Below are positions 22,573 through 25,065 of a stretch of 64,000 nucleotides of DNA, piece after piece (within the stretch, counting starts at the first letter, position 1; every line of letters starts with the position of its first letter). The position numbers and the translations under genes are program-made. The DNA comes from Acetobacterium sp. KB-1 (GTDB lineage: Bacteria > Bacillota > Clostridia > Eubacteriales > Eubacteriaceae). The notes under the pieces were generated by a model. It saw nothing but the letters and a program-made list of their open reading frames with translations, ran no database searches and had not been told where the DNA came from. The stretch lies in contig NZ_CP030040.1 in the NCBI RefSeq assembly GCF_003260995.1, positions 2,713,176-2,777,175 on the forward strand, given 5' to 3'.

Positions 22573-23406
22573 TTAATGTTTTTTTGCTACGGTGCAGATT
22601 GTTTCGCTATCGGGAAGTAATGGCGCTCCCGCGACATCGCCATAAAAGTTGTCAACTAAAAAGCCCGCCGCAGCCAATTCTTTTATTATTTCTGTCGTCG
22701 TAAAGGTATGCTCCCAGATGTTATAACAATCAACGGTTTCTTCGGTGATCACAATCGTTTGGTTAAGGACGGTTGCCCATTTATCATAACGGTAAAAAGA
22801 GTCCAGACAAAGATGAGGGCCTTCCTTCCAAAAGCCGCTCGGGCAATATTTCCACGTGTTTGATTCGGGTTTTCCGGCATGAAATTTCGGCGTGAATACA
22901 TCAAAGATAAAGTGGCCATTAGGCTTTAAGGCGGCATGAATTTTTGTTAAGAGTAGATGCCGGTCATGTGGGGAAAGCACCCCAAAATCGCAATATATAA
23001 GGGTGATCAGGTCAAATTCATTTTCAAAAGTCATCTTAAGATAATCCTTAATTTGGTAGCTAATGCTGGCATTTTTCTTTGCGGCACAACTTTTCGCATA
23101 AGCAATCGAACGCTTAGAAAAGTCAATCCCCGTAACGCAATAAGACTTCTGATAAAATTTATTGGCATAGATACCCGGTCCGCACCCGATATCAAGAAGC
23201 TTGGGATACTGTTTGGGTGGTGCAATTGATGCGATCCAGTTTACCGAAGCATCAACAAAGGTATTGTTTCTGGTGGCAGCATCGCCATCAGGATTGAGAT
23301 GTGCTTCAAGTAAACAAATAGAAATGTGGTCATCTTTCCAGAAATTGGCAGTGCCGTTTTGGTAAATTTCCGGCTTGTGAAGATATGAGAATATTTTTTG
23401 ATACAT
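22573..23406 (-). CDS. Class I SAM-dependent methyltransferase
   Basis: A 277-aa soluble methyltransferase. Motif I is LLDIGCGPGIYANKF (about residues 86-100), followed by GIDFSKRSIAYAK and LITLIYCDFGVLSPHDR. The C-terminal half has WEHTFTTTEIIKELAAAGF, as in small-molecule or antibiotic methylases. ATG 23406 is preceded by CTGGAGGAAACC. It has an unusual leader: a terminator and a 19-bp inverted repeat lie upstream (23431-23659). Substrate unknown. Confidence 0.88.
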   Translation of the reverse strand: MYQKIFSYLHKPEIYQNGTANFWKDDHISICLLEAHLNPDGDAATRNNTFVDASVNWIASIAPPKQYPKLLDIGCGPGIYANKFYQKSYCVTGIDFSKRSIAYAKSCAAKKNASISYQIKDYLKMTFENEFDLITLIYCDFGVLSPHDRHLLLTKIHAALKPNGHFIFDVFTPKFHAGKPESNTWKYCPSGFWKEGPHLCLDSFYRYDKWATVLNQTIVITEETVDCYNIWEHTFTTTEIIKELAAAGFLVDNFYGDVAGAPLLPDSETICTVAKKH

Positions 23407-23430
23407 TTGGTTTCCTCCAGGAAAAATTTT

Positions 23431-23659
23431 TGTGATAACATGAAAAAAGACTGTGGATATCCACAGTCTTTAAAAATCAAAGTCTTTTAATCGTGGAATA
23501 GATATAAACCATAAACTGCATGCAGAAAAAGCCGTTGTCAAACGACTAAAAATTTCTGTTAAGTTACGATTTCATCAATCTTTTCCACGTCTTACTGATA
23601 GTGCCGTTGCAATATCAAGTGCGCCGGATCGCTTCACTTCCTTTTTTCATGTTATCACA
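23431..23659. repeat. 229-bp element with perfect 19-bp terminal inverted repeats
   Basis: TGTGATAACATGAAAAAAG (23431-23449) is exactly complementary to CTTTTTTCATGTTATCACA (23641-23659). The interior holds a 26-bp perfect palindrome at 23446-23471 that acts as a terminator on the minus strand, because T6 follows there. Its own T-tract is part of the 19-bp arm. Nothing longer than a few codons is open on the minus strand. It could be a MITE-like insertion, or a leader RNA in which the long stem competes with the terminator. No target duplication is evident. Confidence 0.75.
23444..23471 (-). terminator. Terminator/attenuator in the methyltransferase leader
   Basis: Minus strand: GACTGTGGAT then ATCCACAGTC followed by TTTTTT, about 40 bases before the methyltransferase start codon. 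It would stop read-through from upstream unless an alternative structure forms. Confidence 0.75.
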
Positions 23660-23743
23660 TAATAATTATAGCATAGTGGCAGAGTGTGTCAATAAATTAT
23701 TGGGTGGTATTGCAGAGGTAGCGGTATATAAGAATTTGCCCAA

Positions 23744-23766
23744 TAAAAAAGTGTCTTCAACACTCT
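23744..23766 (-). terminator. Terminator after the WYL regulator gene
   Basis: On the minus strand AGTGT, loop TGAAG, ACACT, then TTTTTT. Short 5-bp stem, but well placed 40 bases after the regulator stop. Confidence 0.6.
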
Positions 23767-23805
23767 CACCCCCTGCCCCTCACTCACGAGGGGCCATTCC
23801 ATGCA

Positions 23806-24738
23806 TTAACTTTCGTATAGGGTAGCGATATCATGGATTCTACGCTTCATTTCTGTGCGGATATGCAACGGCTCTAAACACTCGCATTTATCCCCAAAAC
23901 TGAAAAGAATATTGTAGTGATATTCGTTCTCGATGAAAGGAAAACGAACAATGAAATACTCATCACCGTCTGGCGAAAAGTGTTCATAAGTGCAATAATC
24001 AAGGACCCGGTCCACGATCGATTTATGAATACGAATTTTGATTTTTATTTGCATCGTTGCCAAAATATCAGTAAAATCTAGCTGCGGTTTTTGATAGTCT
24101 CGTGGCGTAAAAGATTCCGCTTGTATCTGTAGGTTTGATGTCCGGGATAGTTTAAATAAGCGAAAATGATTTCTTTTATGGCAATACCCTTGTAAGTACC
24201 AATGACTACTTTTTAATACCAGCTGATACGGCTCGGTTGTTCGTGCGGTTTTATTTCCGTAGCGGTCGGCATATTCAAACGAAAGTAGCTTGCTTTCCTG
24301 TAAGGCTGTTTTGATCATTTCTAAATAGGGTTGGATGTTCCGGTTGCCCATCCACGGACTTAAATCGACAACGATTTGATTTGCTTTTAATTCAATGTCT
24401 TTGGCTCTGTCGGCGGGGATAAAACTCTTGACTTTCGCAAGGGCGTTTACCAGTTCATCTCCTCGGATCATGTTGGAAAGACTGGAAAGCCCCATCAAGA
24501 TAGCGGAAAGGTCGGCAGTCGAAAAAACTTTTTTATCAATCTTGTATTGCTGCATGATTTCAAAGCCGCCGCCCACTCCCGATGTAGAGTGAACAGGAAT
24601 ACCCGCCATGTTGATCGTGTCAATGTCGCGGTAGATTGTGCGGGGTGAAACTTCAAACAGATCGGCTAACTCCTGTGCGCCGATACGCTTTTTATCAAGG
24701 AGTATCATAATAATGCTAACAAGCCTGTCAACTTTCAT
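23806..24738 (-). CDS. HTH-WYL domain transcriptional regulator (YafY-like)
   Basis: A 310-aa regulator. Residues 1-60 are an HTH_11 winged helix (RIGAQELADLFEVSPRTIYR, then DIDTINMAGIP). A WYL domain (about residues 140-230; SSHWYLQGYCHKRNHFRLF) and a WCX-like C-terminus follow. WYL domains bind ligands or nucleic acid fragments, and many such proteins are repressors linked to stress or defence. It is divergent from the isochorismatase-like fragment at 24859, its likely former target. The start at 24738 has AGGTGGC upstream. Confidence 0.9.
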   Translation of the reverse strand: MKVDRLVSIIMILLDKKRIGAQELADLFEVSPRTIYRDIDTINMAGIPVHSTSGVGGGFEIMQQYKIDKKVFSTADLSAILMGLSSLSNMIRGDELVNALAKVKSFIPADRAKDIELKANQIVVDLSPWMGNRNIQPYLEMIKTALQESKLLSFEYADRYGNKTARTTEPYQLVLKSSHWYLQGYCHKRNHFRLFKLSRTSNLQIQAESFTPRDYQKPQLDFTDILATMQIKIKIRIHKSIVDRVLDYCTYEHFSPDGDEYFIVRFPFIENEYHYNILFSFGDKCECLEPLHIRTEMKRRIHDIATLYES

Positions 24739-24858: not shown

Positions 24859-24951
24859 ATGAAGAAAGACTTGGCAATAATCGATATTCAAAATTACATT
24901 ACAAAGAATGACATGGATGTTATTAGCCCAATCAATAAAGCGATTGATTGG
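24859..24951 (+). pseudogene. N-terminal fragment of an isochorismatase-like cysteine hydrolase
   Basis: AAGGAGG precedes ATG 24859, and the frame reads MKKDLAIIDIQNYITKND. The LAIIDIQN motif is the first strand of the isochorismatase-like family (the catalytic Asp strand). After about 31 codons it runs directly into the promoter repeat at 24952 and stops at 24987. The rest of the enzyme (about 150 residues) is gone. Its 5' end lies divergent to the WYL regulator. Confidence 0.7.
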
Positions 24952-25065
24952 CCCGACAAATTGACTACAAAACAGAAGCGGGCGTAGGGACAATAATTCG
25001 GGTTGTGATCAGTTCGGGAGTTACGATATAATAAGATCTGGTCGGGTAATTGAGATACAATTATC
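24952..25065 (+). repeat. Copy 1 of a duplicated promoter segment joined to the 3' end of a GNAT gene
   Basis: 24952-25040 matches 37040-37128 closely, including promoter hexamers. The following GATCTGGTCGGGTAATTGAG continues as the last codons (D-L-V-G-stop) and 3' flank of the GNAT gene at 37175-37693. The body of the GNAT gene is missing here, so this is an internally deleted duplicate of the 37-kb locus. Confidence 0.85.
25003..25032 (+). promoter_or_regulatory. Sigma-A-type promoter in repeat copy 1
   Basis: TTGTGA (25003-25008), an 18-bp spacer and TATAAT (25027-25032). The same spacing and hexamers occur in copy 2 at 37091-37120. It now drives the RimJ/RimL-like GNAT gene at 25091. 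Confidence 0.75.

Follow-up and report, generated by a model that had tools for sequence, protein, structure and literature searches.

We identify the 229-bp element with inverted ends at positions 23431-23659 of the window (the whole stretch of 64,000 nucleotides analysed here) as the transcribed leader of a minus-strand methyltransferase (MT) gene and as one of a family of related leaders; that it is a conserved attenuator-type leader is, taken alone, highly probable. The inverted repeat is the closing helix, termed P0, of this leader RNA and not a MITE. Comparison with related sequences supports, as predicted features, a promoter, a conserved fold (P2, P3 and terminator), a position before one MT family and an upstream start codon in the relatives. 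The parts of the leader in the window are as follows.

23687-23692, minus strand: -35 hexamer TTGACA (12 of 12 promoter matches, counted together with the -10 hexamer)
23665-23670, minus strand: -10 hexamer TATAAT, with a spacer of 16 nt and a predicted +1 at about 23658
23641-23659, minus strand: P0 5' strand (the right arm of the earlier note), at the predicted 5' end of the transcript
23639-23647, minus strand: Shine-Dalgarno-like sequence AAAAAAGGA ahead of the putative upstream open reading frame (uORF), read from the sequence and weak (-1.8 kcal/mol)
23636-23647, minus strand: P1 5' strand (AAAAA..GAAGU), partner 23472-23483 in the fold predicted without the P0 3' strand
23575-23637, minus strand: putative uORF of 20 codons with an inferred GTG start and its stop within the P3 5' strand
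23584-23628, minus strand: P2 hairpin (UCC...GGA), assigned by homology, its base overlapping P3 in the window's own minimum-energy fold
23492-23589, minus strand: P3 long hairpin, from fold and covariation
23492-23497, minus strand: candidate antiterminator strand UCCACG (P3 3' strand), partner 23460-23465 with a ribosome placed at the uORF stop
23472-23483, minus strand: P1 3' strand (ACUUU..UUUUU), from the predicted fold
23446-23471, minus strand: intrinsic terminator hairpin followed by a U-tract, read from the sequence, between promoter and gene
23431-23449, minus strand: P0 3' strand (the left arm of the earlier note), comprising the U-tract and the stretch just past it
23414-23418, minus strand: Shine-Dalgarno GGAGG of the MT gene (sequence), partly in a small hairpin (predicted fold)
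22573-23406, minus strand: class I SAM-dependent methyltransferase gene, 277 aa (Methyltransf_25, E = 1.5e-18)

The two arms of the repeat, 23431-23449 and 23641-23659, are exact reverse complements of 19 nt each with 191 nt between them, and extend to 22 nt at 95%; coordinates and complementarity thus bear out the earlier description of a 229-bp element whose perfect 19-bp inverted ends overlap a terminator T-tract. The hairpin at 23446-23471 is perfect and is followed, in the minus-strand reading, by TTTCATG. It shares 4 nt with the 3' arm, which contains the U-tract and has 15 of its 19 nt beyond the hairpin. With up to three mismatches allowed, the arm had 3 matches in the 64-kb window against 0.10 expected, and the minus-strand leader fold reached -81.1 kcal/mol against -50.9 (sd 4.6) in 200 shuffles (z = -6.6), an excess and a stability that together exclude a chance origin of the repeat. 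The predicted +1 (about 23658) lies at the outer edge of the 5' arm, with which the transcript would thus begin; promoter-like sites are not rare, however, with 2 seen in the scanned stretch against 1.3 expected. The small hairpin UUUCC-UGGA-GGAAA (23411-23424, minus strand) partly covers the Shine-Dalgarno GGAGG of the MT gene in the predicted fold and could possibly provide a second, translational level of control.

That the element might be a MITE or another insertion, with the arms as its terminal inverted repeats, had been proposed in the earlier note, and the perfect 19-bp ends, the 229-bp length and a patchy occurrence in the genus (any DNA match in 3 of 19 genomes, the own genome included) would suit this reading, but the genomic evidence leaves it extremely improbable. 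Across the whole genome (3,988,268 bases), 15 arm matches were found at up to three mismatches, of which the two arms themselves have none and the other 13 all have three; the dispersed copies proposed as a check were therefore not found, the arms being single copy. No second copy of the 301-bp region was present in the genome, the second match being the terminator palindrome against itself, and no target duplication was seen by eye. The genus survey (19 genomes, DNA match at E <= 0.001) returned the own genome, G016 and a short match in G003 downstream of a thiolase-looking frame, which we left as chance. In G016, the promoter region and one arm are kept (window 23732-23644; 77 identities in 88 aligned bases), and the sequence that follows the MT stop codon adjoins them directly (window 22585-22460; 102 identities in 124 aligned bases); leader interior and MT gene are absent between A-runs, and the -10 box reads TTACAC. 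This site, the only one among the relatives, looks like gene loss with a promoter relic and not like an empty transposon site, which would carry neither arm. Moreover, the arm sequences differ between species while their complementarity stays, and homologous leaders precede the same gene elsewhere. A MITE or transposon was rejected on the single copy and the G016 site.

Related leaders were collected through the MT and through RNA models. MT homologues, 34-56% identical over the matched part, came from searches of the order (67 genomes, 12 with E <= 1e-30) and of the class (391 genomes, 31 with E <= 1e-40). The region upstream of the MT in L053 (43% identical, another family) aligned to the window's leader with a score of 68, against 47 for the best of 500 shuffles, and the leaders of four further MT homologues scored 60-72 as raw values without a shuffled baseline. 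From six leaders, the window's included, we built the covariance model R1. Applied to 39 MT loci, it found a leader in 7, namely the six of the model and, as the one new member, L076, before a nitroreductase-MT pair. Two of five plasmid MT loci carried the leader (Monoglobus, 183.8 bits; Enterococcus gallinarum, 120.6 bits), and R1 detected none at those of two Staphylococcus and one Salmonella. Among 291 genomes of the class, 16 had an R1 match at E <= 0.01, six of them strong and all already known, and ten weak; G354, found by the MT search, is absent from these matches and may lie outside the sample. A further order yielded matches in 20 of 267 genomes, 18 of them new, and a second model, R2, added 3 new members in 398 genomes of the phylum and found no further leader at the MT loci lacking one. 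DNA similarity gave 8 short matches in 398 genomes of the phylum, no members in phages and just the two known ones in plasmids. Viral contigs with the 16-nt terminator core (75 loci) gave 12 R1 matches up to E = 0.1, the best at 36.8 bits, which we took as chance.

The family thus assembled has 29 members from 14 family codes and two plasmid records. Left out of the counts were L202, taken as a chance match (42.7 bits over 77 nt, with no MT nearby in view), and ten R1 matches between E = 1e-4 and 0.01; L081-L086 and L185, the same leaders as L053, L069, L068, L062, the window, L076 and L070, were counted once. The MT lies downstream in 27 of the 29 members, a linkage that holds by construction for the first members, since these were found through the MT; among the 21 new matches from the RNA models, it is present in 18 and missing in L197, L202 and L206. 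The contig of L197 stops 63 nt past the leader, and L206 (1501-1715, minus strand, 62 bits) has no MT in view. Within about 0.4 kb of the L206 leader lies a frame that by eye looks VOC-type; this leader is either a relic or serves another gene. Another gene stands between leader and MT in L076, L199 and L195, and a gap of about 0.4-0.5 kb separates them in L062, L201 and L204. In Rfam (release 15), all six leaders searched (window 23300-23800, L053, L062, L068, L069 and L070) stayed far below the gathering scores among the matches listed, and a known Rfam element was rejected, a microRNA-type match across the repeat scoring 25.7 bits against a cut-off of 211.

Conservation of the fold was scored on an alignment, A4, of 26 rows covering P2 (16 pairs), the base of P3 (9) and the terminator (10). 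Pairing was kept in 91.1% of the cells, compared with 39-48% when partners were slid by one to three columns; 26 of the 35 pairs showed changes on both sides, and none of 500 shuffles reached any of the five measures. Because A4 was fitted to R1, it leans to structure, a bias that the slide and shuffle controls keep, and related rows count several times. The earlier note had suggested looking for covariation in leaders of homologous methyltransferase genes, and it was found in P2, P3 and the terminator, as well as in P0 in a subset; together with the presence of the leader before the same MT family in many genomes, this strong covariation supports the earlier reading of the element as an RNA switch. 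All 26 members have a hairpin within their last 44 nt, partly by construction as the model includes that hairpin; the terminator of L097 lacks the AGAGUAAAAUC box. P1, which would join the purine-rich strand at the 5' end to the segment just ahead of the terminator, is present in single folds. Partner-exchange tests for P0, P1 and the antiterminator used 19 representatives of the 26, with near-copies left out. For P1, the support was modest, with 258 of 20,000 permutations reaching the value of the own partners; the window ranked 12th of 19, its own P1 not being favoured in this test.

For P0, the test gave a summed energy of -300.3 kcal/mol for own partners compared with -212.3 (sd 13.8) for exchanged ones and none of 20,000 permutations reaching the own value in the 19 representatives. 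Strong P0 helices (-18 kcal/mol or better) belong to the window, L062, L195, L196, L198, L199, L076, L201, L203 and L204, and intermediate ones to L068, L069 and L070. The arms of strong P0 helices are quite different in sequence in the window, L076, L201 and L203, and similar among the close relatives of subgroup B. In seven representatives (L053, L098, L097, L190, L194, L193 and L187), or eight with L200, the own P0 was worse than the exchanged ones or at most about 1 kcal/mol better. P0 was thus rejected as a family-wide feature, its covariation being confined to the window and a subset, and with 7-8 of 19 representatives having no clearly own long stem it is unlikely to serve as the family's switch. 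Promoter scanning of the relatives, which yields predicted sites without a shuffled control, placed the +1 at or a few nucleotides from the P0 5' arm in the window, L062, L070, L076, L195, L196, L198, L199 and L204; in L201 and L203 it fell off the arm, on a poorer promoter match. When termination is decided, the U-tract sits inside the RNA-DNA hybrid of the polymerase; as the 3' arm extends 15 nt past the hairpin, P0 could presumably form only after readthrough. In Firmicutes, mRNA decay is known to be slowed when the 5' end of the message is buried, and the timing and position of the predicted helix make it more likely that P0 seals the 5' end of the readthrough mRNA than that it acts in antitermination.

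The P3 3' strand together with the terminator 5' arm offers a better antiterminator candidate than P0, one that the pairing predictions support modestly. In most members, pairing is possible between the terminator 5' arm with its loop (AGAGUAAAA) and the P3 3' strand (UUUUACUCU); both segments are changed together in L069 (GCAGAAUAAAA with UUUUAUUCUGC), and in subgroup B (L062-like) the segment CUCUCGGC pairs with GCCG-AGAG. On partner exchange, 688 of 20,000 permutations reached the own value, with the window 14th of 19, a modest result partly because the boxes are conserved. For the window, with a ribosome at the uORF stop and the terminator 3' arm not yet made, UCCACG paired with the terminator at probabilities of 0.45-0.96, compared with at most 0.26 for the GUGGA bases in the free state. 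Once the terminator 3' arm was present, the terminator won at equilibrium in all three states (0.95), so that the switch of the window would have to be kinetic.

Masking by a ribosome footprint was modelled in 28 of the 29 members, L206 being left out. On average, upstream pairing of the terminator arm went from 0.28 in the free leader to 0.41 on masking the uORF start and to 0.40 on masking the stop. At least one of the masks brought a rise above 0.05 in 21 of 28 members, with the largest rises in those whose uORF ends in P3 (L098, 0.26 to 0.68; L194, 0.49 to 0.86; L205, 0.30 to 0.83; window, 0.38 to 0.59), and pairing was lowered in 4 of 28 by the start mask and in 3 of 28 by the stop mask. 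A sliding 32-nt mask, computed for the same 28 members and with results shown for eight, gave the clearest rises over the P3 5' strand in L053, L062, L069, L070, L098 and L201. For the window, most mask positions within the first 100 nt, including ones far from P3, gave 0.5-0.6. Masks elsewhere did as well in the window and L076, so that these two show no specific effect. The support for the antiterminator is thus modest overall and least in the window itself.

The predicted uORF starts with ATG at one leader position in 27 of the 29 members (24 of the 26 in the alignment plus L204-L206), a few bases past an AAAGG-like purine-rich run. The exceptions are the window and L068, with GTG three bases earlier, which in the window follows a weak Shine-Dalgarno sequence. 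The uORF of L069 reads ATG-TGA. Encoded peptides agree within subgroups, with MLSGNT in L062, L195, L196, L198 and L199, where L199 keeps it despite synonymous changes, and MLFG(D/N)(T/I) in five close relatives. Subgroups differ in the reading frame across the conserved UCCGG as well as in the peptide, and a single leader peptide for the whole family was therefore rejected. By analogy with vmlR and cplR, the uORF would suit sensing close to its start codon, with little dependence on sequence, better than stalling on a particular peptide; the ATG may instead be conserved for purely structural reasons.

By the same analogy, we lean, at somewhat better than even confidence, towards a transcription attenuator of the vmlR/cplR type that is switched by a ribosome on the short uORF, with P0 as the 5' seal of the readthrough mRNA. 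By default, P1, P2 and P3 would form, the P3 3' strand would be occupied, the terminator would form and transcription would end short of the gene. If a ribosome were held on the uORF, most likely by a translation inhibitor or a translation defect, it would mask part of P1/P2 or of the P3 5' strand. The P3 3' strand, or in subgroup B the P1 3' strand, would then be free to pair with the terminator 5' arm, and polymerase would enter the gene. P0 would be completed in readthrough transcripts only, where it would close the leader, bury the mRNA 5' end and probably stabilise the message. More tentatively, and with the balance of our judgement against it, the leader might represent a new class with two steps, in which a junction attenuator, responding to a ribosome on a start-proximal uORF or to a new ligand, is followed by a readthrough-only helix that locks the +1 nucleotide and stabilises escaped messages only; the P1 3' strand of subgroup B would have two alternating partners, the uORF and the terminator.

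Were the P1-P2-P3 junction a riboswitch aptamer, a small molecule such as the MT substrate, its product or a toxic compound would decide, and the upstream ATG would be incidental or secondary. Helices that covary in a fold resembling a junction, conserved stretches (UCCGG, a UAAAAUC loop and GGAAAAGAGUA), the link to one enzyme family in 27 of 29 members and the lack of a peptide common to the whole family all agree with this, but the ATG is kept in the same proportion, one subgroup preserves its MLSGNT peptide in L199 through synonymous changes, and the conserved nucleotides fall largely in paired or dual-role segments; we consider an aptamer doubtful. A free-standing small RNA that lies upstream of the MT by chance would account for the compact fold with its own promoter and terminator, and is rendered quite unlikely by the 27 of 29 members that precede an MT, the others being L206 and L197, whose contig ends, without an MT in view.

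The earlier note had placed a possible switch in P0 itself, whose long stem would sequester the U-tract and thereby prevent termination. The idea of a switch stood, in kind, whereas capture of the U-tract as the antitermination step is very unlikely. P0 does covary, and its 3' arm takes in the U-tract together with the terminator's last 4 nt; on the other hand, that arm would mostly be made after the termination decision, the seven representatives named above have no clearly better own P0, and the terminator core and P0 coexist in the window's predicted fold.

Among known leaders, several come close to that of the MT. The vmlR leader of Bacillus subtilis is 219 nt long and has a three-codon uORF (MIN) inside an anti-antiterminator and an intrinsic terminator; a ribosome held on the uORF permits the antiterminator, and variants of the uORF peptide are tolerated (PMC9226507). 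The MT leader, with its intrinsic terminator and putative uORF, is similar in layout, a likeness that does not come from alignment; the vmlR leader controls an ABCF protein, and a helix closing the 5' end is not among the features described in the available text (PMC9226507). The cplR leader of Clostridia likewise has a short uORF (MRI), a premature terminator and antibiotic-induced expression, but it consists of two stem-loops, its terminator stem hides the cplR Shine-Dalgarno sequence, it serves a different gene, and translational attenuation is sufficient for repression (PMC10201436). In B. subtilis, tlrB (yxjB) is a methyltransferase gene with a leader peptide and both transcription and translation attenuation; unlike the MT leader, it stalls at the RYR motif of a 9-aa peptide, and its enzyme is the 23S rRNA methyltransferase RlmA-II (PMC6851288). 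The uORFC-6-1 motif upstream of hflX, mostly in Bacillales, is also structured, covarying and equipped with a uORF, yet it serves hflX and its peptide has an Arg-Leu-Arg motif (PMC8632094). The smtA motif/Soda Lake RNA, longer than 350 nt and exclusive to Thioalkalivibrio, is a different RNA (PMC11109978). No description of the MT leader was found in the open-licence literature, including the available parts of PMC2965389, PMC8632094, PMC9226507, PMC10201436, PMC6851288 and PMC11109978.

A set of uncharacterised methyltransferases that spans many families of the phylum would have one common switch, testable in a reporter strain. Induction by a translation inhibitor would make the MT a probable stress or resistance enzyme; induction by a metabolite would make the leader a new riboswitch. 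P0, if true, would make mRNA stability dependent on having escaped termination.

The best solved relative of the MT is a ubiquinone-type O-methyltransferase (E = 2.8e-21), and no NCBIfam model reached its cut-off among the matches listed (25 of 28 models). The full-length MTs nearest to that of the window by identity are those of L055-L059 (52-54%), at whose loci neither R1 nor R2 detected the leader. Mapped on a tree of 55 MT proteins, presence of the leader takes 7 changes, of which at least 4 are forced by well-supported branches, compared with 18.2 in shuffles, indicating that the leader is clustered on the tree and was lost or gained several times. Searches with the MT gave one record among phages (30% identity) and, for related loci, one distant Sphingobacterium locus. 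A nitroreductase-family gene accompanies leader and MT in L076/L086 and L199 (Pfam) and in L205 (by eye), before or after the MT, and the gene between leader and MT in L195 is a weakly matching nucleotidyltransferase (Pfam). A link of the MT to antibiotics, suggested by such neighbours and by the leader layout, is a guess. In L098 (Monoglobus, NZ_OY725736.1, 183250-189080), a recombinase and a conjugation-type gene lie ahead of the leader-MT unit, neighbours which suggest that the unit may travel on mobile DNA. Upstream of the leader promoter in the window, a WYL-domain regulator with an HTH_11 domain (Pfam) is encoded in the same direction (23806-24738, minus strand), and a 42-codon frame at 24859-24987 (plus strand) resembles what we take to be the start of an isochorismatase-type gene, cut short.
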